Source: a virus. Taken from it: a stretch of 64,000 nt of DNA. Location: the IMG/VR virus record IMGVR_UViG_3300026484_000007, positions 1-64,000 of that record. The stretch is one strand, 5' to 3'. A program made the position numbers and the translations under genes. Shown here piece after piece: positions 12,513-55,904 of this stretch (within the stretch, counting starts at the first letter, position 1; every line of letters starts with the position of its first letter). Under the pieces are notes generated by a model. It was not told the origin of the DNA. It did no database searches and saw only the letters and a list, made by a program, of their open reading frames with translations.

Positions 12513-14075
12513 ATGCCAAGTGTTGACAATTTAATTCTTGAAAATTACGATGCGTTCGTTACAGAGAATGAAGAAAATTTATTTACTGATCCAACATCGA
12601 CTGTAGACGTTGTTGCTGATGATAGTTATTATGACATGTTTAAATCAAGATTACTTCAAGGGTTAGATTTAGAAGAATCTGAACTTAGAAAAATCAATGA
12701 AGTACTTGATAGACAAAGAGCGATGATATTAGAGGAAGCTAACTCATTAATGAGTTCACCAGACGCAATTGCATATGCAGTAGCAAGTTTTCCAATGATC
12801 GTTAATATCTATGCAGATCCATTATTACAAAAAGTTGCTTCAGTTTTCCCAACTGACAAACCAACAATGTCTATCTCTAGATTAAGATGGGTAGCGAAAA
12901 TTATCGATGAAAAAGGTAATATTCAAGAATACATGTTCCCAACTGCAACTAGAATGATTAGACCAGATTTCAAACAATTCAAAGTTCCAACTAGTGATAA
13001 TTTATTTACTGAATTAGGTGTTGCTAAAGGTGACTTCAGAATTTCTAAAAGAAATTTCAAAGTTATCAGCGTAGATGTTAAAGTTGATGACGGTGATAAC
13101 ACTGAAATCGTTAATGTTCCTATTATTGCATTAGCAGATGCTAGAGGTAACTTTGCTTACGATAATTTAGTAGTTCCAGGTGTTGACGGTGGAATCTATA
13201 AAGTTCAAGGTTCTGTAGATTTCGAAAGTGGTGCAATTACTTGGGCATTAGTAGTAATTGAGCCAGGTGATAAAACTGTAACTGCTGAAAAATTAGAAAT
13301 CAAATTCAGAATTTTCGGAAACGGAAATGGTAGAGGTGTAGTAAGAGCTTACCCAAGACAAGACATCATCGATGTTAACGCTGATATCGAAGATAGCTTT
13401 GAAGTAGAAAACATTGAAGAAGTTATCCAAGATTGGAAATCATTATTCAACGTAAACATTATCGCTGAATTAAAAGATTTCGTTAAACATCAAATGAAAC
13501 TTAACAGAGACTTCGAAATCGCTGAAATTCTTGAAAGTAACATTCCTTACTTACAAACTATTAATCAATATAGAGAAGTAGATTTAAGTCAATTCGTTGG
13601 AGACGATTTCAAAGCTGCAAACGTTCTTGATGTATTCAAAAACATCATCCCAGCAATTAACGCTTTAGTTGAGCAAATGAGAAGAACAACTAACATGGAA
13701 GTAAGAACGTTAGTATGTGGAATCGATGTAGCAGCAATCTTAAAATCTATGCAAGAATTCGCTATCAAATTCGAAAAATTTGAAGGTAATACTGGTTTCA
13801 AAGGTTCTGGTGTAGCAGAATTCAATAAACTTGAAATCATCGAATCTTACGCTGTAAGTCCAGATTTAATTCACTTAATCGTTCACAGTCCTACATTAAG
13901 CCAAGCTACTTTAGTAATGATTACATATAAACCATTATATGTATTAATGAGTGTTGATAACTCAATCAAAAGAACTTATATCAAAAGTAGAAACTGGATA
14001 GGGCTTGTAAGAAGTGAAGGTCAAGGTACTATCAAACTTAAAAATTATGAAGCATTCTTAAGTATGGGAGCATAA
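12513..14075 (+). CDS. 23: Major capsid protein (T4 gp23-like)
   Basis: The 520-residue protein matches T4 gp23 in length and in position after the protease. The N-terminus (NLILENYDAF) carries a Leu-x-Glu site for the prohead protease, within an acidic propeptide-like stretch of about 60 residues. AYAVASFPMIVNIYADPLL, FPTDKPTMSISRLRW and EYMFPTATRMIRPDF look like the start of an HK97-type fold. Codon use differs from its neighbours: many codons end in C (ATC, TTC, AAC, GAC), as expected for a very highly expressed gene. No cysteine-rich or membrane segment is present. The assignment rests on position, length and expression signature rather than one diagnostic motif. Confidence 0.75.
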   Translation: MPSVDNLILENYDAFVTENEENLFTDPTSTVDVVADDSYYDMFKSRLLQGLDLEESELRKINEVLDRQRAMILEEANSLMSSPDAIAYAVASFPMIVNIYADPLLQKVASVFPTDKPTMSISRLRWVAKIIDEKGNIQEYMFPTATRMIRPDFKQFKVPTSDNLFTELGVAKGDFRISKRNFKVISVDVKVDDGDNTEIVNVPIIALADARGNFAYDNLVVPGVDGGIYKVQGSVDFESGAITWALVVIEPGDKTVTAEKLEIKFRIFGNGNGRGVVRAYPRQDIIDVNADIEDSFEVENIEEVIQDWKSLFNVNIIAELKDFVKHQMKLNRDFEIAEILESNIPYLQTINQYREVDLSQFVGDDFKAANVLDVFKNIIPAINALVEQMRRTTNMEVRTLVCGIDVAAILKSMQEFAIKFEKFEGNTGFKGSGVAEFNKLEIIESYAVSPDLIHLIVHSPTLSQATLVMITYKPLYVLMSVDNSIKRTYIKSRNWIGLVRSEGQGTIKLKNYEAFLSMGA

Positions 14076-17864: not shown

Positions 17865-17941
17865 CCCTCATTAGCTCAATTGGATAGAGCGACGGACTTC
17901 GGATCCGTAGGTTGCGGGTTCAACTCCTGCATGGGGGTCCA
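17865..17941 (+). tRNA. tRNA-Arg (UCG)
   Basis: Acceptor CCCTCAT pairs with ATGGGGG (one T-G pair). The D arm is GCTC/GAGC. The anticodon loop CTTCGGA lies between ACGGA and TCCGT, giving UCG. The T arm GCGGG-TTCAACT-CCTGC is regular. CCA is encoded at 17939-17941. Confidence 0.93.
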
Positions 17942-17943
17942 TT

Positions 17944-18033
17944 GGAAAGTTGGCCGAGTGGTCGAAGGCGCTCGCCTGGAACGCGAGTAGACTGTAACAG
18001 GTCTCAAGAGTTCGAATCTCTTACTTTCCGCCA
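17944..18033 (+). tRNA. tRNA-Ser (GGA)
   Basis: Acceptor GGAAAGT/ACTTTCC. The anticodon loop CTGGAAC in the CTCGC/GCGAG stem gives GGA. A long class II variable arm (AGACTG...CAGGTCT) is present, with T arm AAGAG/CTCTT and encoded CCA. Confidence 0.93.
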
Positions 18034-18063
18034 TGTGCCACCACATAACATATATTTATATAA

Positions 18064-18139
18064 TCCTCCATAGCTCAGTTGGTAGAGCAACGGACTGTTA
18101 ATCCGTGGGTCGCTGGTTCGAGCCCAGCTGGAGGAGCCA
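18064..18139 (+). tRNA. tRNA-Asn (GUU)
   Basis: Acceptor TCCTCCA/TGGAGGA, canonical D arm with AGTTGGTA, anticodon loop CTGTTAA in ACGGA/TCCGT, T arm GCTGG-TTCGAGC-CCAGC, encoded CCA. Confidence 0.95.
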
Positions 18140-18142
18140 TAT

Positions 18143-18218
18143 GCTATCATAGCTCAGTCGGTAGAGCACTTCCTTGGTAGGGAAGAGGTCATCGGTTCAA
18201 TTCCGATTGATAGCTCCA
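18143..18218 (+). tRNA. tRNA-Thr (GGU)
   Basis: Acceptor GCTATCA/TGATAGC, D loop AGTCGGTA, anticodon loop TTGGTAG in CTTCC/GGAAG, T arm ATCGG-TTCAATT-CCGAT, encoded CCA. Confidence 0.94.
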
Positions 18219-18239
18219 CGGGTAATGGGGGTAATGTAA

Positions 18240-18313
18240 TCCAGGGTCGTCTAATGGTAGGACAACTGGTTTTGGTCCAGTTTATCGGGGTTCGAGTCCC
18301 TGCCCTGGAACCA
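18240..18313 (+). tRNA. tRNA-Gln (UUG)
   Basis: Acceptor TCCAGGG pairs with CCCTGGA. The anticodon loop TTTTGGT in ACTGG/CCAGT gives UUG. The T arm has GGTTCGAGTCC, and CCA is encoded at 18311-18313. Confidence 0.94.
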
Positions 18314-18317
18314 GAAT

Positions 18318-18394
18318 GCATTCGTAGTTTAACGAGTAAAACGTTATCGATGAAAAGATAAAGTTATTGGTGCAAGTCCAATCGAATGCTTCCA
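18318..18394 (+). tRNA. Degenerate tRNA, Phe (GAA)-like, with eight-base anticodon loop
   Basis: A cloverleaf is still visible: acceptor GCATTCG/CGAATGC, D stem GTTT/AAAC, anticodon stem TTATC/GATAA and T stem ATTGG/CCAAT. It is abnormal in several ways. The anticodon loop GATGAAAA has eight bases; reading T as position 33 gives GAA. The D loop AACGAGTA lacks GG. The T loop is TGCAAGT instead of TTC-type. Two T precede CCA. It may be a decayed tRNA or a tRNA-like RNA with another role. Confidence 0.55.
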
Positions 18395-20138: not shown

Positions 20139-20687
20139 ATGAAAACTTTAGAAAATTCTACAACCGTTCCCCAAATTTCCCCTATTACAAAAGATGATCT
20201 TCAAAAGATCTCTTTTGATACAATTGATGCAGTTGAAGAAAAATTTAAAAATATCATTAGATCTCTTAATCCAAATATAAAATTTAAAACTATGCAAATT
20301 AAACCAGCATCTCCAAAAATTTTTAAATACGTTCCAGAAAATGATTTATTCGTTATTCAGGATAATGTAATTCATGATGACTGGAATTATATCTTAACGT
20401 TTGATTTTGTATTCTCGGAAATGTCTAAAAAATTTCCTGAGAATTTTAAAAATAAAGAAATTCAAATTCTTTATTTATTACCATTTCCAATATACAATCT
20501 TTTTTTACATTTTATGACGTTAACTCAAGAGTATCAAGTTACGATTTTTATTAGTAAAGATGATATTAATGAAATAAAAAATTCTGAAAATTATATAAAA
20601 ATTACTGAAAATTTTCCAAACCTTTTTATTTTAAAAACTTTAGAAGATGCAGAAAAATTAAATTATATAAAAATCAAAAAAGATTAA
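20139..20687 (+). CDS. Uncharacterised 182-residue protein
   Basis: It starts ten bases after the previous gene with AAAAGGACTCAA upstream of the ATG. The N-terminal 25 residues are polar with a palindrome-encoded DDLQKIS (about 20190). The body has alternating strands (VPENDLFVIQDNVIH, EIQILYLLPFPIYNLFLHF) typical of a small alpha/beta fold, and there is no clear membrane helix or metal site. I do not recognise the family. It ends the operon that begins with the gp26-like gene, closed by the terminator at 20694. Confidence 0.55.
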   Translation: MKTLENSTTVPQISPITKDDLQKISFDTIDAVEEKFKNIIRSLNPNIKFKTMQIKPASPKIFKYVPENDLFVIQDNVIHDDWNYILTFDFVFSEMSKKFPENFKNKEIQILYLLPFPIYNLFLHFMTLTQEYQVTIFISKDDINEIKNSENYIKITENFPNLFILKTLEDAEKLNYIKIKKD

Positions 20688-21779: not shown

Positions 21780-22071
21780 CTTTTGAAAAACTTGATTTTT
21801 AAAGTAGCATCTATTTTAGATCTTCCGCGATATATACGAGTTCTAAAATTTCTAAAGTGATTTTAGAACTGCTATATATCTTTAGATATCTAATGAAGCG
21901 CAACGTTTGCGAGACACGAGTTTTCAATTAAAATTATATCGAAAACTTTGATTTTTAAAGTAGCATCTTTTTTAGATACAAGCGATATATGGCAGTTCTA
22001 AAATTTTTAGAACTGCTATATATCTTTGTGTATCCAATGATGCGCAACGTCCGCGGATCACGAGTTTTTCG
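21780..22071 (+). repeat. Two tandem copies of the large intergenic inverted-repeat element
   Basis: Copy 1 runs about 21780-21925 and copy 2 about 21940-22071. Each has an A-type left arm (GATTTTTAAAGTAGCATCT...TTAGAT), a centre AGTTCTAAAA/TTTTAGAACTGC, TATATATC, and a B-type right arm with GCGCAACGT. The B arm differs inside: TTGCGAGACACGAG in copy 1, CCGCGGATCACGAG in copy 2. This fills the 397-base gap between the spanin-like genes and the baseplate operon; no gene is present. Confidence 0.75.
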
Positions 22072-30692: not shown

Positions 30693-30749
30693 TGGAGTTG
30701 TGATCTTTAAAAGATCACTTCTCCAGCTTTTTTTGTCGTTAGAAAAAAT
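30693..30749 (+). terminator. Terminator with ATCT/AGAT stem, followed by the tag
   Basis: TGGAG-TT-GTGATCTTT pairs with AAAGATCAC-TT-CTCCA, then CTTTTTTT. The tag GTCGTTAGAAAAAAT is at 30735-30749. Confidence 0.9.
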
Positions 30750-30770
30750 TCTATAGAAAAATTATAAAAA

Positions 30771-30912
30771 AACTTTTAAAAAACCGAGATCCTAAAACGT
30801 TAAGCATCAATAGATACACAAAGATATATAGCAGTTCTAAAACGGTTTTAGAACTGCTATATATCCTTAGTATCGAAAAAAGATGCTACTTAAAAAATCA
30901 AGTTTTTCAAAG
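30771..30912 (+). repeat. Large intergenic inverted-repeat element
   Basis: Outer arms ACTTTTAAAAAAC and GTTTTTCAAAGT, inner GATATATAGCAGTTCTAAAAC and GTTTTAGAACTGCTATATC (a perfect inverted repeat of at least 18 bases per side), and an A-type right arm with GTATCGAAAAAAGATGCTACTT. The B-type left arm is degenerate. This, the terminator and the leader fill 30650-30965; no gene is present. Confidence 0.75.
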
Positions 30913-40378: not shown

Positions 40379-42280
40379 ATGGCTAATTTATGTCCAGGAA
40401 TAGTGGTTTCTGAATTCATGTATGCGAATAATTTTACTTTATTAATAAGATTATGTCCAGAATATTCTCATTTAATTATGGATGAACCGATAACCATTGG
40501 AGAAAAGGAAGTAATTCCTGCTCCATCTCCTACTATCAATGATGAACCATTAGATTCTAGCGATGGAAATTCTGAAATAATTAATTCAGACGTAATTACG
40601 CATTTGACTGCTCAAATAACTTTAATTGAACAAACTATATCAGATTTAAAAAAATCTATTGAAGATAATCTTAATCCAGATATTGATCCCGAAGAAGATT
40701 GTGATCCAAATGATTATTCTGATCAAGATATTGATCAAGATACTGAAACAGCTAAATACACTGAATTCTTAAGCCCTGAACAGAATCCTTATTATATTAC
40801 TACAGAAGATGTCGCATCTGGAAAAGATCCTATTGTAATTTTCTGTCCAGATAAAGATAATGAAGATGGAGAGAGTACGCCTAAATTCGTGAAAGAAGAT
40901 TTACCAATCGATGGAAAAGATCTTTTAAAGATACAACTTAAGACTCCATTATGCGAAATTCCAGATTCTAAAGTAAAAAGTACTGTATCTGATTTAGAAG
41001 ATATTACGAAGTACATCAACGATGATACATTATCTGATTTATCTGATTTAGATACTTTAATTACTAATACTCAATCTAAGAAATTAGATTTGGATCCTGA
41101 TAATAGCGAAATTACTGCAGCCGATTATTATAATACATACAATGAAACGTTTGAAGAAAAAACTACAATTCTTCAACCGAAGGAAGTTAAACTTGGAATA
41201 CCATTAGCTACTTTAAATAAAGAAGAAGAAATTCATCTTCAGATAATTGATTCTAAAGTAGAAGTTACTAATCTTTTTCAATTGACAAAAGGTTTAAAAA
41301 TTGATAAAGAATTAGAACCGGGAGTGGTTTATACAATTATTTTTAGGACTAACGGATTTAGTCATTCATTGTATTTATACGATGAGAATAATAATGAATT
41401 TTATTCAGATTCTTTATCGACAATAAAAGATCTTACAGTAACCACGATAGCGATGGATGCTTTAGCTAGAAAACATTTTTGTGGAAAAATTTTAGACGTT
41501 CAAATTTTTGCAAATCAAATTGCTACTCCAGAAGAAGTAGTGAAAGAAAAAGCTTTATTTACAGTGCCAGATGGAGTACTTGCATTCTACGATTGGAATG
41601 AAATAAGAGTTCATAAAAATTTATCATTCTCTTTACCAAGTTTCGAATATCCTTTAAAAATGTTTCCAAATTATTATAATAATTTTATTCTCGAAGAAAA
41701 TACTTTACCATATAAAAGTCTTAAACATGGATACATTACAAACTTCTTTTGTAATCAAATCCTTTCAGAGAATGAATTTACGATCGCGGCGTGGTTTAAA
41801 ATTGAAGATGATAGCAATATATATAATGAAAGAGGCTTCCCAGATTATCGTGGAATTATCGATGATGATATTCATGGAACTACTTTAATGTATGATAGAT
41901 ACACTAATAAATTTAAATTACAAATACTATCTAAAGAAGGATCTTTTGAAGATCAATTTTTTGATTATTATCTGAGAGATAATTCTTGGTACTTTATCAC
42001 TTTTAAATTAAAAAGAAAAGATACAGAGACTCCAGAAGATAAAATTATTTTTAGAATTCATGATGAAGAAAATAATATTGATGAAATTGAATTTAAAGTT
42101 CCCGAGAATTTTAAATTTATTTTAATGACAATGTTTGCTCAATTCGTCGGAAGAAATTATACGAATTTCTTTGATGTAAAAATTGGGAATGTTGCATTGT
42201 TTAAATCGGTAATTTCCGAAGGTCAAGAAGATGCAATATTCTATGATGGAATTAAAGTTTTAAAAAATAGAAAAATGTAA
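40379..42280 (+). CDS. Adhesin/fibre-like protein with a concanavalin-like (LamG-type) C-terminus
   Basis: The 633-residue protein has an acidic, aspartate-rich N-terminal half (NPDIDPEEDCDPNDYSDQDI, residues about 100-125) and a C-terminal jelly-roll pattern. NEFTIAAWFKIEDDSNIYN, GTTLMYDRYTNKFKLQIL, NSWYFITFKLKR and FFDVKIGNVALFKSVISE follow the order of LamG/concanavalin-like lectin domains. An earlier half-copy of similar strands (VYTIIFRTNGFSHSLYLYD...AFYDWNEIRVH) suggests two such domains. It probably binds surface glycan. A start with AAGGATCTTTT just upstream uses half of the palindrome as ribosome binding site. GSFEDQF is a palindrome-encoded peptide. Confidence 0.6.
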   Translation: MANLCPGIVVSEFMYANNFTLLIRLCPEYSHLIMDEPITIGEKEVIPAPSPTINDEPLDSSDGNSEIINSDVITHLTAQITLIEQTISDLKKSIEDNLNPDIDPEEDCDPNDYSDQDIDQDTETAKYTEFLSPEQNPYYITTEDVASGKDPIVIFCPDKDNEDGESTPKFVKEDLPIDGKDLLKIQLKTPLCEIPDSKVKSTVSDLEDITKYINDDTLSDLSDLDTLITNTQSKKLDLDPDNSEITAADYYNTYNETFEEKTTILQPKEVKLGIPLATLNKEEEIHLQIIDSKVEVTNLFQLTKGLKIDKELEPGVVYTIIFRTNGFSHSLYLYDENNNEFYSDSLSTIKDLTVTTIAMDALARKHFCGKILDVQIFANQIATPEEVVKEKALFTVPDGVLAFYDWNEIRVHKNLSFSLPSFEYPLKMFPNYYNNFILEENTLPYKSLKHGYITNFFCNQILSENEFTIAAWFKIEDDSNIYNERGFPDYRGIIDDDIHGTTLMYDRYTNKFKLQILSKEGSFEDQFFDYYLRDNSWYFITFKLKRKDTETPEDKIIFRIHDEENNIDEIEFKVPENFKFILMTMFAQFVGRNYTNFFDVKIGNVALFKSVISEGQEDAIFYDGIKVLKNRKM

Positions 42281-42282
42281 TT

Positions 42283-42490
42283 TTTTAGAACTGCTATATA
42301 TCCATTGTATCTAAAAAAGATGCTACTTTAAAAATCAAAGTTTTCAATATAATTTTTAATGAAAACTCGTGTCTCGCAAACGTTGCGCTTCAATGGATAC
42401 ACAAAGATATAAAAGCAGTTCTAAAAATTTTAGAACTGCTATATATCCATTGTATCTAAAAAAGATGATACTTTAAAAATCAAAGTTTTC
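42283..42490 (+). repeat. Half and full copies of the large intergenic inverted-repeat element
   Basis: A right-half copy (TTTTAGAACTGCTATATATCC, GTATCTAAAAAAGATGCTAC; 42283-42348) is followed by a full copy (42361-42490) with outer GAAAACT/AGTTTTC and a B arm with TCTCGCAAACGTTGCG. In the full copy the palindrome reads GTATCTAAAAAAGATGATAC. The element stops about a dozen bases before the PAAR gene start, so it supplies the promoter region of the following unit. Confidence 0.75.
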
Positions 42491-42502
42491 AAAGGTTAAA
42501 AA

Positions 42503-47516: not shown

Positions 47517-47561
47517 AACAATAAAGAAATGATCTTTAAAAGATCCAAAAAAGGAGAATTA

Positions 47562-50500
47562 ATGATTAAAATTAATTTTGGAAGTTTTCCGTTAATTAAT
47601 ATAGATCAGCGAACGAGATTATGTTTAGATAAATATTTAATTAAGACATTTTCTAATCAATTTCAAATGCATGATAAATTAACCACTCTTGGCACTGGTA
47701 AAGATTTTTATTTTTTAACGCCAGAGAAAATTCTAGACGAATTGCTTAGTTGGGATAAAAAATCGAACAGATTATCAGATATTCAGCCAAAAAATTCGGC
47801 TGGTGTTTTTGGCTCATCAAACTATAATTCATCATCTAGATTTAATGGATATTTACCTGAGTCAACTGAGATCGTTGAAGTTGTATCTAAAAAAGATGCA
47901 ACGAAAGAAATTTTTTTAATTCCTAATTATCTAAGTACTCAACGATTGCTTGCTATGAGATCTTTAGAAGAAGCTATTTTTGAAATGGAAGATTCTGGAG
48001 ATGAAAATGAATTTAATTTTTATGATCTTTATAAATTTTTAATTACTTATAGCAATCAACCGGAATTGGTAGATCTTTTTCCTATATTATTAAACGTGGC
48101 TGATGAATTCGAAGAAACAACTCTTGCTCAAATTGAACACGATATTATATTTTTCATTAAGCAGTTTAAAAAATATTTAGCTCTTAATGGAGATACTTTA
48201 AGTATTCTTGAAGATATCGATGATATAATTGATCCAACTCAAGATCCATTGTTAATTCTGAAAATTTTTGAAGAAATTACTATTTATTTAAATGATAAAT
48301 TTAATCTTGAAATGGATGAAATCAATTTAATTAATCTTCCAGATATCGTAGATAAAGATGATCTTGAAAACGGCGCAAATGATATGAACATCGAAGAATC
48401 TGAGAAAGTACTTTTAGAAGAAAAAAACAATAAAAATTTTAATTATTCAATGTTAGATAATGCTGATGCTTATACTGCTTTAATTAAAAGAGCTTTTATA
48501 TTAATGAGCAAGTATTATCAAGAAATCGCTAGAGATGGTTTTTATAGAAATAAATTCGTATTACCGATTTATAGCGAAAAGTTAGTGTCAATGGATATTA
48601 ATAATCCAGGAAGCGCCAACACCCAATTTAAATATTCATTTTATTTACTTACGAATTCTTTAACAGACTCAATTAAATTAGATAATATTGCTTACAACGA
48701 AAGCACTGTTATCAATATGCTATATATTTTTAATCAATTATTTCCAACATTGTCATTAAATGAATTTAATGATAGGCATATGGAAATGGTAATGAAATTC
48801 TATAATTTTATTGAAAAGAATGATATGAAACCAGTTGAATTTTTTACAACATTTTATAGATTAGTGTATATAATTAATCATTATGAACCTGGAAACTATA
48901 ATGAAATAAATGATATAATTAATTCAAGCAATAATAATCAAGATCAATTTTTTGATAAAGAGTTAGTAGTTGAAATGGTTCAAATTATTAATCATTTAAG
49001 TCCTTCGGTTCAGGATGAATTAAAATTAATGGCTAAAAAAATTACTAGAACGTTGAAAGATTTAAGAATAATCAATCCTGCAAATAAACCTGAATTAACT
49101 TATGATAGAGATATGTCTATCGATTACAGTAGACAAGTAATTGCGTTATTTGAAGCTTTTTTAAGAAATAAGAATACTTCATTTTCAGGTAATCTATCAA
49201 CAGAATTCCGAAGAGTTCAACATTTAAATGATAATATAAAATTTAGGGATATAATTATTTTATTTCAAGAGCTCGTTAGATATAATAAATTATCTTATAA
49301 AGACATTATTGTTCAAGATAATGATTTTATTGATTTTAGTATGGAAATTTCAAATACGAGATTGAATTTTAATGAGTTAACCACTAAACGATATCTTGAT
49401 CAAAATTTTAGAGATTTCGTAAAAATGAGTTATGAAAATTATATCGATACCATTATGAAAAATACTATTTTAAATAGCGTTGCTGTACGCGATTGTACTG
49501 ATTTTGATTTAGTGCATTATAATGCGGCTACTGGAGAAGTAAGACTTTCGGATCCAGCGTACTCAATTACGGAATCAATAAAATATAAATTACCTAAAAT
49601 GAGTTTAGAAGAAGTAATTATAAATAATGCAATTTTAAAAGATTTAATCTATGATCTTTTTGATGCAGCGCAAAGTAAATTAAGAACTCCATTGAGCGCA
49701 GCGGATCGAATAGTATATGGTAGAATGGCAAATTATTTAGATAAACTTTATCATGAAAGATATACAACAGGATCTATTTTAGCTACTTTAAATAAAGATA
49801 GAAGAGATGAAATTCATGAATTATTAAATTTACCTATCATTTACGATACTTTAGATTTCGATGATTTATTTGAAAAAGTTTATAAAATTTTTAAACAGAC
49901 CCATTATCCAACGAGAGGTGGTATGGCGCGTCGACCAATTACTGTTGAAGAATATGTAGATGAATTTTTCCGAATACTACAAAGTTTTTATACCGTAGAT
50001 GCTTCTAGAATGGGCTCTGGTGGATCCGGAGGATCAGGATCCGGTGGTAGTACTGCGAGTGGATCAGGAGGCTCAGGTGGTTCTGGTGGTTCTGGTGGAT
50101 CTGGTCGATCCGGAGGAGGTTCGGGATCTGGAGGAAGCTCAAGTGGCTCTGGAGGAGGATCAGGAAGCTCTGGCTCTGGAGGAGGTTCTGGTGGCTCTGG
50201 TGGATCCGGTGGATCTGGAGGAGGTTCGGGATCTGGCGTAACCTTATTCGATAAAGATCACGGAGGAATTTATCCTAAATTAAGAACCACTTATGGAAAT
50301 ATATATGATATATTAACTAATCTATTTCTTAGCCCAGAAATATTCGCATTAATTATTAAAAATAACATAGATGATTCCGATAAGTTCGAATCATTCATTT
50401 CAAAAGATGAAAATTCTTTAGAAGATAATGAAAAACTTTTATTATATAATTTAAAAAATCTTAATACATCAATTATGGATCTCGTAGTAGATTCGACTGA

Positions 50501-51416
50501 ATATTATGAAATGCTTTTAGAAAAAGAATTATTTGAGAAAGCAACCGATTGTTTGAAAAAAGGACGCTTAGTTTCACATATTGATCATCATATTTTATAT
50601 GATATTATCGAAATGCTTATCGATAAAAATACGAATCAAAATGTTAGAGATAGATTTCAACGAAAGTCTTATAAAAGACTTCTTAAGATTTTAATCGATA
50701 AAGTTTTTAGACCATTGATTCTAAAATTCAAAAACATGTCTTTATCGAAAGAAGTTGAATTCAAAGAAGTTTCAAATGGTTTAAATCCATTATTGAAAAA
50801 GATTGTTAAAAATCCTCAGCATTTTAAATCTTATATTATAAGTACTAACGTTATTAATATTTTATATGAACTTTTATATATTACAGATACTCAAAAATTC
50901 ATTATTGGAGCAAGTGGACAAAACGCTGGATTAATCCAAGTACCACGAAAGTATACAATGATGAATAATAAAATAGAATACATTTTAGATAATATTTTAA
51001 AATTAAAACATAATCCTATTTGGCTTATAAGTAAAGATAAAATTTATCTTTCTTTACCAGATTATTTATCTTTAACGCACAATAGAATTATAGGTAGTGT
51101 TCCAAAAGATGAAATTCAAAATTATTGTCGAATGGATTTCGCAAAAATATGGAGCGCTAAAGAAATCGGTAATACTTTAAAAGGTACTCAGAATGTTGGT
51201 AAAGCGACAGCAGATTATCTTTCAACTCTTAAAAAATTAACTGATAAGAAAAATTTTAAAAGCAGCAAATGTAATGGTAAAAATAAAAATAAAGACAATA
51301 AATGTAAAAATATTGATTCTGAAATTAAAGCAATTGAACAAGAACTTAAAGTAAAAGAAGCGGCTTTAAAAATCGTAGGAATTGATATTAATAATATTAA
51401 GAAAAACGGAACATAA
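47562..51416 (+). CDS. Giant uncharacterised protein with Gly/Ser linker
   Basis: The start is ATG 47562 after AAAAAAGGAG; the longer in-frame form from 47529 lacks a ribosome binding site. The 1284-residue protein has a helical N-terminal region of about 820 residues. A nearly pure Gly/Ser linker follows (about residues 817-893, DNA 50012-50236, built of GGSGGSG-like units). Then comes a C-terminal region of about 390 residues with charged helices and a final KCNGKNKNKDNKCKN patch. It looks like two modules on a flexible tether. VSKKDAT (DNA 47884) is a palindrome copy. No homologue is recognised. The large size and operon position suggest a virion protein. Confidence 0.5.
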   Translation: MIKINFGSFPLINIDQRTRLCLDKYLIKTFSNQFQMHDKLTTLGTGKDFYFLTPEKILDELLSWDKKSNRLSDIQPKNSAGVFGSSNYNSSSRFNGYLPESTEIVEVVSKKDATKEIFLIPNYLSTQRLLAMRSLEEAIFEMEDSGDENEFNFYDLYKFLITYSNQPELVDLFPILLNVADEFEETTLAQIEHDIIFFIKQFKKYLALNGDTLSILEDIDDIIDPTQDPLLILKIFEEITIYLNDKFNLEMDEINLINLPDIVDKDDLENGANDMNIEESEKVLLEEKNNKNFNYSMLDNADAYTALIKRAFILMSKYYQEIARDGFYRNKFVLPIYSEKLVSMDINNPGSANTQFKYSFYLLTNSLTDSIKLDNIAYNESTVINMLYIFNQLFPTLSLNEFNDRHMEMVMKFYNFIEKNDMKPVEFFTTFYRLVYIINHYEPGNYNEINDIINSSNNNQDQFFDKELVVEMVQIINHLSPSVQDELKLMAKKITRTLKDLRIINPANKPELTYDRDMSIDYSRQVIALFEAFLRNKNTSFSGNLSTEFRRVQHLNDNIKFRDIIILFQELVRYNKLSYKDIIVQDNDFIDFSMEISNTRLNFNELTTKRYLDQNFRDFVKMSYENYIDTIMKNTILNSVAVRDCTDFDLVHYNAATGEVRLSDPAYSITESIKYKLPKMSLEEVIINNAILKDLIYDLFDAAQSKLRTPLSAADRIVYGRMANYLDKLYHERYTTGSILATLNKDRRDEIHELLNLPIIYDTLDFDDLFEKVYKIFKQTHYPTRGGMARRPITVEEYVDEFFRILQSFYTVDASRMGSGGSGGSGSGGSTASGSGGSGGSGGSGGSGRSGGGSGSGGSSSGSGGGSGSSGSGGGSGGSGGSGGSGGGSGSGVTLFDKDHGGIYPKLRTTYGNIYDILTNLFLSPEIFALIIKNNIDDSDKFESFISKDENSLEDNEKLLLYNLKNLNTSIMDLVVDSTEYYEMLLEKELFEKATDCLKKGRLVSHIDHHILYDIIEMLIDKNTNQNVRDRFQRKSYKRLLKILIDKVFRPLILKFKNMSLSKEVEFKEVSNGLNPLLKKIVKNPQHFKSYIISTNVINILYELLYITDTQKFIIGASGQNAGLIQVPRKYTMMNNKIEYILDNILKLKHNPIWLISKDKIYLSLPDYLSLTHNRIIGSVPKDEIQNYCRMDFAKIWSAKEIGNTLKGTQNVGKATADYLSTLKKLTDKKNFKSSKCNGKNKNKDNKCKNIDSEIKAIEQELKVKEAALKIVGIDINNIKKNGT

Positions 51417-51532: not shown

Positions 51533-53281
51533 ATGTATAAATTTAGAATTAAAGATATTGATGAAAAAATAAAATATATCAAACCAAATTCATTTTATAA
51601 AAATGCTATGGAAAAGATTAAGAAGTCTAAAATTTTTGAAGAAATTCAAGAAAGTGCTGTATCTTACGAAATTGAAACGAAACAGATTCAAATCGATAAA
51701 AATTCAACTGCTGCAGAAAATAATAAAATGATTGTGGAAGAGACATATGGTAATCCTTTATCTTTTATGAAAACTGTTAGTTCTAAGATAGCTAAAGCTA
51801 AAAAACAAGAACGAAGAAAAATGGAACTTATCACTGAAAGTTTTAATTCAAACGTTTTCGAAGATAAAACTTTAAAAGATTTAAAATATTTTAATTATTT
51901 AATCGAGAGCACTTTAAACCCTCTTGAAAATGAAATTAAAAATATTAATGAATTAAAAGAAGTTCTTTATGATAAAATTAAAGAAGCTTTAGTAGAATCA
52001 GTTACTTTATATAAAGAAACTAACGTTAAACCAAGATTCTTAACACCAGCTTTCGCTAAAAAAGAATTAACCGAAAATGAATTAATTAATCTTTATGAAG
52101 TAAATTTTAAAAAATTTCTTACTGAAAATTATTTAACTCCTGTAAGAAAAAATGAATTCAAAGATGAGATCAAGAGTGATCTAAAAAAGATCACTAAGTA
52201 TTTAACGGAGAATGGTATTGATGCGAACTTAGATACTTTAACTCTTTATTTACCTTTTGAAAAAAGTATTAGAGAATTCTTCGAATCAATTTTAATCCCT
52301 GAACCATCTAAATATAAAATTAATTTATTTTTAGAAAATCAAGATCCAATTTATTTCGAATTATTCGAAAACAATGCTAAAATTCTTCAAGAAAATGTTG
52401 AAGAAAAAATTGCTCATATTGCTTCTATGATTGGACCATTTTTATTTAAAAATAAAGTTGATACAGATTTAGAATCTGGTTACAATCCATTAAAATTAGC
52501 TGGTTTATCAATTGCATGTGAAAGAATTGATGATGGACCTATGGTTTGTAAAGCTAAAAAAGCTGAAGGTATTGGAGCTGAAGAAGATTTAGAAGATGAA
52601 ATTCCAGATGTATCTGATAAAGATGCAAGCGTAGCTGATGTAGCTGATGATATCGATGATATCGATGATATTGATATTGAAAAAGAAAAAGAAGCTGTTG
52701 AAAAAGCTGCTGAAGAAGAAGCGGTTGATCTTGATAAAGATGAAGATTCTGTAGAAGATGCAATCGTTGATGAACTTGAAGCAGAGCTTGAAGCTGAAAT
52801 GGAAGATAAAGTTGCTGGGCCAGATGATAATATCGATATTGAAAAAGAAATGGAAAATGTTCCAGAAGATTCAATAGATTCTGAAGGATCAGATGAAGAT
52901 AAAGATGAAGATAAAGATCATGATGGAAAAAAAGATTCTGAAGAAGATCATGGAGAACTTCCAGAAGATTTCGAAGGTGATCATGAAGACGCTGAGAAAG
53001 AATCTAAAAAGAAAGATGAAAAAAAAACGCTAAGTGAATCAGATGAAAGTGGTATAGATCCTACACCATTAGATAATGATTCTAAAATTTCAAGATCAAT
53101 CAAGTTAGCTGAAGAGCCTGGTGATCTTAAAAATTTAAAAGAAGTATATAAAGAACATAAAAATTTTAACACTGAAATCAATAAAGAAGAATTCGTTGGC
53201 GATGAAAGCGCGAATATCAATAAATTGGAAGACGTGGTAAAAACTCACGAAGATCAAAATTTTAAAAATTTTGACAAATAA
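51533..53281 (+). CDS. Acidic protein, candidate head scaffold/core protein
   Basis: In this 582-residue protein the first 330 residues are charged helix with several Leu/Ile-x-Glu sites of prohead protease type (ELITESF, YLIEST, ALVESV). Residues about 350-500 are extremely acidic (runs such as DDIDDIDDIDIEKEKEAVEK and DEDKDEDKDHDGKKDSEEDH). The tail is mixed. An acidic, helical, cuttable protein is what the T4 prohead core (gp22) looks like, and no gp22 is evident between protease and capsid genes. That assignment is inference. TAAGGAG precedes the start. SDLKKITK is a palindrome copy (DNA 52176-52196). The terminator lies ten bases after the stop. Confidence 0.45.
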   Translation: MYKFRIKDIDEKIKYIKPNSFYKNAMEKIKKSKIFEEIQESAVSYEIETKQIQIDKNSTAAENNKMIVEETYGNPLSFMKTVSSKIAKAKKQERRKMELITESFNSNVFEDKTLKDLKYFNYLIESTLNPLENEIKNINELKEVLYDKIKEALVESVTLYKETNVKPRFLTPAFAKKELTENELINLYEVNFKKFLTENYLTPVRKNEFKDEIKSDLKKITKYLTENGIDANLDTLTLYLPFEKSIREFFESILIPEPSKYKINLFLENQDPIYFELFENNAKILQENVEEKIAHIASMIGPFLFKNKVDTDLESGYNPLKLAGLSIACERIDDGPMVCKAKKAEGIGAEEDLEDEIPDVSDKDASVADVADDIDDIDDIDIEKEKEAVEKAAEEEAVDLDKDEDSVEDAIVDELEAELEAEMEDKVAGPDDNIDIEKEMENVPEDSIDSEGSDEDKDEDKDHDGKKDSEEDHGELPEDFEGDHEDAEKESKKKDEKKTLSESDESGIDPTPLDNDSKISRSIKLAEEPGDLKNLKEVYKEHKNFNTEINKEEFVGDESANINKLEDVVKTHEDQNFKNFDK

Positions 53282-53290
53282 AAAGTTTTT

Positions 53291-53346
53291 TGGAGATGTG
53301 ATCTTTTAAAGATCACTCTCCAGCTTTTTTTGTCGTTAGATAAAAT
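53291..53346 (+). terminator. Terminator of the acidic gene with the tag
   Basis: TGGAGATGTGATCTTT pairs with AAAGATCAC-TCTCCA, then CTTTTTTT. The tag variant GTCGTTAGATAAAAT is at 53332-53346, followed by two more TAGATAAAAT repeats. Confidence 0.88.
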
Positions 53347-53369
53347 TAGATAAAATTAGATAAAAATAA

Positions 53370-53430
53370 ATTTTAGAACTCGTATATATCCTTAGTATCT
53401 AAAAAAGATGCTACATTGAAAATCAAAGTT
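53370..53430 (+). repeat. Half copy of the large intergenic element
   Basis: TTTTAGAACTCGTATATATCC, GTATCTAAAAAAGATGCTAC and AAAATCAAAGTTTTT match the right half of the copies at 42361 and 30771. Confidence 0.7.
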
Positions 53431-53458
53431 TTTTTAAAAAAATAAAATAAATAAAAAA

Positions 53459-53542
53459 GAAGACAGCTCTAGAATCCGAAGATTCTAGAGCTCGAGGACT
53501 AAAGTCCTCAGAGAGTTATCCGAAGATAACTCTCTTGTCTTC
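53459..53542 (-). ncRNA. Candidate four-way-junction RNA with two UUCG tetraloops
   Basis: GAAGACA (53459-53465) pairs with TGTCTTC (53536-53542). Inside are three back-to-back perfect hairpins: 11 bp at 53466-53491, 6 bp at 53494-53509 and 10 bp at 53511-53534. Only zero to two unpaired bases separate them. Read on the minus strand, the first and third loops are C(UUCG)G, the most stable RNA tetraloop, and the middle one is UUUA. On the same strand TATAAATA lies immediately upstream and six T directly downstream. The strand choice rests on these three points. Confidence 0.6.
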
Positions 53543-53544
53543 AC

Positions 53545-53552
53545 TATTTATA
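53545..53552 (-). promoter_or_regulatory. TATAAATA late-promoter-like box for the four-way-junction RNA
   Basis: On the minus strand the sequence reads TATAAATAGTGAAGACA, placing initiation at or just inside the outer stem. TATAAAAATAGTGAAG occurs before the minus-strand gene at 55711, so the context is shared. Confidence 0.55.
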
Positions 53553-53568
53553 TATCTTTTAAAAGAAT

Positions 53569-53660
53569 ACGAGTTCTAAAATTTTTAGTGTAATTTTAGA
53601 ACTGCTATATATCCTTAGTATCTAAAATAGATGCTACATAGAAAATCAAAGTTTTCAAAA
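53569..53660 (+). repeat. Partial copy of the large intergenic element
   Basis: GAGTTCTAAAATTTTTAGTG...TTTTAGAACTGCTATATATCC, GTATCTAAAATAGATGCTAC and AAAATCAAAGTTTTC. It lies between the RNA and the convergent terminator; no gene is present between 53282 and 53736. Confidence 0.7.
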
Positions 53661-53678: not shown

Positions 53679-53726
53679 ATTTTTTCTAACGACAAAAAAA
53701 GAAGTGATCTTTTAAAGATCACTTCT
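53679..53726 (-). terminator. Minus-strand terminator followed by the tag
   Basis: Read on the minus strand, AGAAGTGATCTTT pairs with AAAGATCACTTCT, then a T run, then GTCGTTAGAAAAAAT (53693 to 53679). The tag therefore follows the direction of transcription, as on the + strand. Confidence 0.88.
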
Positions 53727-53736
53727 AAAATTATTT

Positions 53737-54333
53737 CTAAAAGTTTCTTTCGAAACCTTTATATTTTTTCTGAATAATTATATCTTTTATTCCTAACGGA
53801 AAAGATTTAATATCAGATTTTGATAAATTAAATTGTTTTGCTAAAGCAACGATGTTTTTATTGTAATCATTAATACTTTCACATTCAGAAGTAATTAATG
53901 TTACAATTTTCTTCCCTTGTTTATAAGCAGTAACTTTACTTACAAAGCTATCTTTATCGTCACCTACTATTTTGAATTCTTCGTCAATTCTTATTATAGC
54001 ATGTTTATCCAATTCTTTTGGATCAGGTGCCTTATCTAATTTTTCTTTAACTTTCTTTATCTGACCATTAGAAGAAGAAGAAATTTTGAACCATCCTTTA
54101 TCCTTCCAACCGTTTATATATCTAATTCTATAAGTATTGAAATACCAATCTTTTTTCCCAGCATCTTTCATATACTCATTTAAAGAATCGTATTGATTCT
54201 TATTTAATTTAATCAGGAATCTGATTTCCTTTCCTGATTTAATCATTTGAGTTTCTTTTGATGTTAGAGATAAATTTTCAATTGCTTCTGTAATTGTCAT
54301 TAATAATTTTTCTGTTTTTTTATTTAAAAACAT
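53737..54333 (-). CDS. Uncharacterised 198-residue minus-strand protein
   Basis: The protein is basic and alpha/beta, with no membrane segment: KEIRFLIKLNKNQYDSL, YFNTYRIRYINGWKDKGWFKI and IKSFPLGIKDIIIQKKYKGF. The aromatic/basic pattern would suit nucleic-acid binding but is not diagnostic. The leader contains three tandem ACGAAGGA(A/G) units directly before the start (54338-54367), giving three ribosome-binding-site-like sequences. An internal start at MTITEAIENL is also possible. It forms a unit with the minus-strand gene upstream and ends in the convergent terminator. Confidence 0.5.
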   Translation of the reverse strand: MFLNKKTEKLLMTITEAIENLSLTSKETQMIKSGKEIRFLIKLNKNQYDSLNEYMKDAGKKDWYFNTYRIRYINGWKDKGWFKISSSSNGQIKKVKEKLDKAPDPKELDKHAIIRIDEEFKIVGDDKDSFVSKVTAYKQGKKIVTLITSECESINDYNKNIVALAKQFNLSKSDIKSFPLGIKDIIIQKKYKGFERNF

Positions 54334-55711: not shown

Positions 55712-55812
55712 AAGTGCTCCTTTTCTTTTATTGTTTTTAGATGTCGTAAATATCTTTTGAATCAAAAAAAGATTCTAAAGATAATGAAGCAAGATCTCTC
55801 CTCTTACTTCAC

Positions 55813-55822
55813 TATTTTTATA
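55813..55822 (-). promoter_or_regulatory. TATAAAAATA promoter-like box of the minus-strand unit
   Basis: On the minus strand AGATATAAAAATAGTGAAGTAAG resembles the context at 53552 (TATAAATAGTGAAG). The GAAGTAAG/CTTGCTTC pair just downstream may form a 5' hairpin. Confidence 0.45.
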
Positions 55823-55904
55823 TCTATGCTAAAAAAAGGAATTCTAAAACAAAAAGGAATTCAAAAACAAAGCGAAAAATTAAGATTTCAAAGGATGATA
55901 TGAA

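Follow-up and report, generated by a model that had tools for sequence, protein, structure and literature searches.

Hairpin-packed transcripts of one promoter class, coding and noncoding, in a putative jumbo phage and their possible part in counter-defence

A 272,602-base virus record encodes a set of predicted transcripts, both coding and noncoding and defined by their promoter, whose tandem hairpins go far beyond the needs of the protein code. The starting point for this analysis was a compact minus-strand structure in the window (the whole 64,000-nucleotide stretch, bases 1-64000 of the record), which the original prediction described as a four-way-junction RNA with its own promoter. Behind the same promoter class lie five structured noncoding RNAs, of which the element is one, and at least 13 hairpin-packed genes. 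This relationship had been missed; the membership of the element in the set is well supported. Our preferred reading, to which we give a probability of roughly 0.4, places the element, as a short noncoding RNA, in an early counter-defence regulon, the transcripts of which would fold to resist RNA-targeting immunity.

The element is a compact fold between promoter and T-run

Folding bears out the three perfect hairpins and the compact four-way junction proposed for this locus. On the minus strand, the 87 nt from 53459 to 53545 form hairpins of 11, 6 and 12 bp within a closing stem (Table 1), and just two bases of the junction are unpaired; the closing stem itself is present, at 6 bp and not the 7 bp first described. 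The minimum free energy is -50.3 kcal/mol (z -7.5 against dinucleotide shuffles), and when flanks are included z falls to -9.6, with equal stability in none of 200 shuffles. Among 5,112 overlapping 100-mers taken from both strands of the window, the top two are the element, one on each strand. Its stems are near perfect and foldable on both strands; two of the loops read C(UUCG)G on the minus strand and CGAA on the plus strand.

The promoter directly upstream and the T-run directly downstream were also correctly recognized: the string TATAAATA, as part of GATATATAAATAG, adjoins the element upstream, and six T residues follow it (53458-53453). Promoter and T6 run together imply that a noncoding RNA of about 85 nt would be made from the minus strand, a transcription that we infer from these sequence signals. 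No tRNA or tmRNA was found at the element by ARAGORN or Rfam, in agreement with the prediction that it is not a tRNA. The further statement that it matches no known RNA family holds as well: at the gathering threshold, Rfam finds in the window only tRNAs located elsewhere and nothing at the element, and a permissive scan that included the CRISPR repeat families gives sub-threshold matches only. We rejected the near-misses of that scan (FtrB, Ref66, PyrR and others), which lie far under their gathering scores and several of which overrun the promoter. Translation of the element was likewise considered and rejected (inside it there is no ATG with a ribosome-binding site).

Table 1. Features at and around the element (window coordinates)
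Feature	Position	Strand	Basis or remark
Predicted noncoding RNA (closing stem plus three hairpins in a four-way junction)	53459..53545	-	Folding, 100-mer ranking
Closing stem, 5' strand (GAAGAC in RNA)	53537..53542	-	Folding; pairs with 53459-53464
Closing stem, 3' strand (GUCUUC in RNA)	53459..53464	-	Folding
Hairpin 1, 11 bp, loop UUCG	53510..53535	-	
Hairpin 2, 6 bp, loop UUUA	53494..53509	-	
Hairpin 3, 12 bp, loop UUCG	53465..53492	-	
T6 run directly after closing stem, likely termination site	53453..53458	-	Sequence
Promoter core GATATATAAATAG	53544..53556	-	Exact 13-mer search
Upstream promoter box TTTTAGAACT	53572..53581	-	Common to about 50 bidirectional promoter-like repeats genome-wide
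Promoter-like repeat B, head to head with element promoter	53592..53655	+	
Promoter-like repeat A, 94% identical to B, facing element from opposite side	53369..53432	+	
Hairpin terminator of plus-strand gene 51533-53281	53291..53325	+	
Hairpin terminator of minus-strand gene 54333-53737	53700..53726	-	

Two other features of the window were recorded in passing. Bases 47529-51416 encode a protein of 1295 aa, about 100 residues of which form a long Gly-Ser-rich tract, and for which Pfam and PHROG gave no matches, and a tRNA gene cluster occupies 17865-18390 (five genes by ARAGORN, for Arg, Ser, Asn, Thr and Gln, and a sixth by Rfam at 18318-18390).

One promoter class precedes structured RNAs and small genes

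The promoter of the element reads TTTTAGAACT-N15-GATATATAAATAG (53581-53544, minus strand), with an exact core. The exact 13-mer GATATATAAATAG has eight sites in the 272.6-kb record, all eight on the minus strand: five precede structured noncoding RNAs, and three precede the small genes 166446, 166956 and 167199, which have A-rich leaders and strong ribosome-binding sites. The 15-nt spacing from TTTTAGAACT to the core is kept in every one of the five noncoding members (53556, 128697, 174919, 215722 and 216572). The link from promoter class to hairpin packing is strong, not absolute: a core with one mismatch at window 55812-55824 on the minus strand (TTTTAGAATT-N15-GATATAAAAATAG) precedes an unstructured gene of 463 aa, whose 5' leader opens with two hairpins and which has homologues in relatives.

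The TTTTAGAACT box also opens about 50 intergenic repeats before genes throughout the regions examined, often head to head. These bidirectional promoter-like repeats (TTTTAGAACT[GC][GC]TATATATC..., for example at window 21802-22005, 30702-30911 and 42276-42497) have two downstream types, TATCTAAAAAAGATGCTAC and TATCTATNGATGCKCAACG, and head-to-head pairs are often 2-15 bp apart. When IMG/VR was scanned for exact copies of the repeat TTTTAGAACTSSTATATATC, five matches came up in three unrelated groups of contigs; one or more of the matches fell within coding sequence, and we took them as chance.

Coding sequences of the class are packed with hairpins

Between 158 and 183 kb, each minus-strand gene was compared with its own synonymous-codon shuffles, in which protein and codon usage are kept. 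Fourteen genes of 46 to 199 aa in this interval are packed, with folding energies of -0.26 to -0.50 kcal/mol per nt and z scores of -3.5 to -10.9; ordinary genes fold at about -0.09 to -0.20 kcal/mol per nt. Packing was found in 13 of the 14 genes with the promoter class and in 1 of the 23 genes without it (Fisher p 5e-8), the exceptions being gene 160814, which has the motif and a z of only -1.3, and gene 162910, which is packed without the motif. Our survey covered targeted stretches of the record, so that the number of hairpin-packed genes given here is a minimum for the whole genome.

Near-unbroken chains of hairpins, with loops mostly of 3-6 nt, make up the packed coding sequences. Pairing averages about 0.2 in the leader (-30 to 0), 0.34 from 0 to +20 and about 0.6 further in. 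Among control genes, none of 42 in the window lies below -0.22 kcal/mol per nt, none of 40 phiR1-37 genes is hairpin-packed, and no packed gene was found among 45 of phiKZ or 33 of AR9 (criteria z < -4.5 and excess > 0.06). Two window genes, 20139-20687 and 53737-54333, fold moderately below their synonymous shuffles (z -6.2 and -4.9), with energies short of those in the packed genes.

The mismatches within stems indicate the level at which this structure is maintained. A symmetric inverted-repeat search, in which all mismatches were treated alike, gave 14 G-T, 1 A-C and 4 other mismatches in the packed genes, and 18 G-T, 11 A-C and many others in control genes. A G-T mismatch becomes a permissible G-U pair in the transcript, while A-C stays a mismatch, so the asymmetry points to selection acting on the sense RNA. 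When folded at full length, all 14 packed genes favor the sense strand; by windowed energies the sense strand is favored in 12 of 14, the antisense strand beats it in 2 of 14 and equals it in a third, and the strand bias is a trend in these windowed energies. Selection at the RNA level, which the original prediction had read from the two C(UUCG)G loops, is upheld for the transcript class by wobble and sense folding, but such loops are not a feature of the class: only two of them occur among the hairpins tallied.

Other noncoding members

The noncoding members range in z from -6.6 to -11.2. Locus 128697 is a structured RNA of 250 nt (z -8.4), locus 174919 (127 nt, z -6.6) shows a closing stem and three arms once its 3' end is included, and loci 215722 and 216572 are three-hairpin RNAs (z -11.2 and -7.1, respectively). 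A related promoter at 215940 precedes a further structured RNA (z -7.1). A separate observation concerns G000:C1:215264-215389, a possible circularly permuted tRNA-Trp(CCA) gene in which the 3' half (ending CTTTCCCA) precedes the 5' half (starting GGGAAAG) by 8 nt; the circular mode of ARAGORN joins the halves as tRNA-Trp [218,209], broken within the anticodon loop, and Rfam gives a weak tmRNA match only.

Virus type and possible timing

Tail sheath, DNA polymerase and helicase families identify the virus as a myophage. The record has two separate loci for RNA polymerase beta parts, as in phiKZ-type phages, and its nearest named relatives, reached via one RNA polymerase beta protein at about 22-27% identity, are Staphylococcus phage S6, phiR1-37, Fusobacterium phages and PBS1; because of the two loci and of the relatives by that protein, we take the record for a phiKZ-type jumbo phage. 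Eight IMG/VR contigs carry the same RNA polymerase beta protein at 42-49% identity, and no DNA similarity to named phages was found.

The promoter had been called late. A T4-type late promoter is a TATAAATA recognized by a host polymerase with phage late factors; the string is present here, but the extended motif appears nearer to the early (virion-polymerase) promoters of phiKZ-type phages. The early, virion-polymerase promoter of AR9 is AAATATATATTAT-6N-G (PMC5312081), and the annotated promoter of phiR1-37 is ATTGATATATTATWWT. Like phiKZ, AR9 and phiR1-37 with their early transcription, the present phage has multisubunit RNA polymerase beta genes in two sets, and its AT-rich promoter core resembles the virion RNA polymerase (vRNAP) consensus, as in phiKZ-type phages (PMC5312081). 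With the two polymerase loci and this motif, the late assignment is not supported, and the element and its regulon may instead be early. The present phage differs from phiKZ, AR9 and phiR1-37 in the extra TTTTAGAACT box 15 nt upstream of the core and in its hairpin-packed coding regions, which the tested genes of those phages lack.

Relatives show the property on unrelated genes

Among 523 genes of the relatives, 7 pass thresholds of z < -4.5 and E < -0.22; three of these lie in one stretch of relative G001, and one, with z -10, is in G002. Neither the packed genes of G001 nor the z -10 gene show homology to those of the present phage, and therefore the property recurs on unrelated genes; overall, the cases in relatives are weaker. 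Two small non-homologous genes of G001 (L091:3448-4590 and 12620-12934) have tandem hairpins through the coding sequence, and the former is preceded by a TATATAAATAA-like motif. The promoter core is not conserved in the relatives.

The element itself, as far as can be seen, appears to be lineage-specific. Searches of IMG/VR with single flanking proteins found no relatives, and no homologous locus was found in the related genomes; homologues of the 463-aa neighbor occur in G001, G002 and G005, but without the convergent arrangement or a comparable intergenic RNA.

Two packed genes encode predicted counter-defence enzymes

Type III CRISPR systems sense phage RNA and signal through second messengers, of which Csx3 removes cyclic tetra-adenylate and SAM-AMP lyase removes SAM-AMP. 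Two of the packed genes are predicted to encode these two enzymes. By sequence, gene 173339-173635 is a Csx3/Crn3 ring nuclease (TIGR02579, an NCBIfam equivalog, E 2.5e-26, 91.8 bits against a cut-off of 55.4; PDB AF_1864, E 5e-18), and residues H57, H60, D69, R71 and H80, which are essential or conserved in Csx3/Crn3 (PMC7371418), are conserved in the PDB alignment. Gene 166446-166829, whose promoter core is identical to that of the element, aligns along its full length with SAM-AMP lyase structures (residues 5-126; 9gad, E 6e-28; 9lqd, E 5e-28) and also matches the PADLOC model Mvol_0529 (E 4e-33); its aligned Glu and Gln fit the catalytic residues E71 and Q108 (PMC12255297), with a steady one-residue offset in numbering.

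These regulon members are homologues of known enzymes against type III messengers (PMC12255297), from which the present case differs in that both occur together and that their transcripts are hairpin-packed. Homologues of the two proteins were not found in the eight related records (mostly fragments) or in 50,697 named phage records. Searches of Pfam, PADLOC and the PDB gave no confident names for the other packed proteins (2 of about 14 are named).

A possible counter-defence regulon and the alternatives

Three things coincide here: one class of promoter, RNA-level hairpin packing and two enzymes against type III CRISPR. The simplest joint reading of the three is an early counter-defence regulon. 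Nucleus-forming phages hide their DNA and stay open to RNA-targeting type III and Cas13 systems (PMC13282480). Under the mechanism that we propose, the element would be a minus-strand product of TTTTAGAACT-N15-GATATATAAATAG that ends at the T-run, as one of a set of early transcripts devoted to counter-defence. The hairpins may deny single-stranded targets both to crRNA pairing and to ribonucleases specific for single-stranded RNA, while the unpaired A-rich leader would stay open for the ribosome, so that folded transcripts could last long enough for the messenger-degrading enzymes to be produced. The noncoding member, whose two ends are paired in its closing stem, might be a long-lived RNA of the same program, perhaps a decoy. 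Protection from RNA-targeting defense is a step of this scheme that we infer from the coincidence above, and the function given to the regulon is hypothetical throughout. The complete version, in which a DNA phage shields a dedicated early regulon, coding and noncoding, from type III CRISPR and collateral ribonucleases by tandem-hairpin folding while enzymes of the regulon destroy cA4 and SAM-AMP and the noncoding hairpin RNAs join in the counter-defence, is tentative and, taken with all its parts, somewhat doubtful. The role of the noncoding RNA is the least secure part of the scheme: a decoy for host proteins that sense or cut RNA is our first candidate, though by itself an unlikely one.

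The strongest competitor is general RNA stability, in which folding resists ordinary host or phage ribonucleases (RNase E-like enzymes, the degradosome) with no link to CRISPR, and the small RNA is a stable regulator or a by-product. Resistance of this kind accounts for the folding as well as the counter-defence reading does: short-loop hairpins run through the coding as well as the noncoding members, the leaders are open while the two ends of the noncoding RNA are paired, and most members are unnamed small proteins, which need not serve counter-defence. It leaves the gene content unexplained, however, given that two members match enzymes against type III CRISPR, and other genes of the same phage, which should also need stable messages, lack the feature. 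We regard it as rather unlikely.

Next comes a role that depends on the particular shape of the element, which might serve as a scaffold, regulate by binding protein or by antisense pairing, or work as an RNA anti-CRISPR. The nearly gap-free junction and the pair of C(UUCG)G loops would suit such a role, as would the closing stem and three arms of the second noncoding member, 174919. Against this, the five noncoding members have no evident common sequence beyond the promoter, except within the 215-216 kb group, and the element has neither an Rfam match (CRISPR repeat families included) nor a counterpart in relatives, which leaves a sequence-specific function distinctly unlikely. Improbable, too, is an action during transcription, with nascent hairpins blocking polymerase backtracking or R-loops, or marking RNA for export via a nucleic-acid-binding phage protein such as ChmC: the feature does follow a promoter class, and phiKZ-type phages keep transcription apart from translation, perhaps with an RNA-binding factor for export (PMC13282480), but long transcripts should then show the feature too, and they do not.

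A feature of the DNA (a cruciform, an origin, a packaging or recombination site, or the by-product of palindrome-making mutation) would fit stems that are near perfect and fold on both strands; the 14-to-1 preference for G-T over A-C mismatches on the transcribed strand, and the tight tie to promoter, T-run and reading frames, make it very improbable. Least probable of all is a plain bidirectional terminator or insulator, because, although the element lies between convergent genes and its 53465-53492 hairpin with the T-run scores as a terminator, each of those genes has its own hairpin terminator, one on either side, and two more hairpins, a closing stem and a promoter common to other structured RNAs exceed an intrinsic terminator. 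The original prediction had also set a plain terminator aside.

Relation to known systems and significance

Genome-scale ordered RNA structure (GORS) in RNA viruses extends along the whole RNA genome and is often discussed as evasion of RNA sensing. The packed genes resemble GORS in that folding across the coding sequence exceeds that of codon-shuffled controls; they differ in belonging to a DNA phage and in being confined, together with noncoding RNAs, to one promoter class of small genes, with the remaining genome examined lacking the property. As a short structured transcript with its own promoter, the element would be akin to phage small noncoding RNAs (phiKZ ncRNAs, phi29 pRNA and RNA anti-CRISPRs), from which it differs in having no Rfam match. 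No equivalent of a hairpin-packed, promoter-defined regulon was found in the open-access literature, and within that literature we claim it as novel.

If the counter-defence reading is true, the regulon would represent a cis-acting form of anti-defense on RNA, new in kind, in which promoter-defined transcripts carry hairpins selected at synonymous positions and include those for enzymes against type III CRISPR. Hairpin-packed coding sequence could then serve as a guide to counter-defence genes among the small phage genes of no known function. Jumbo phages that form a nucleus conceal their DNA but still have to expose their messages, and the regulon would be a testable answer to how those messages survive under RNA-targeting immunity.
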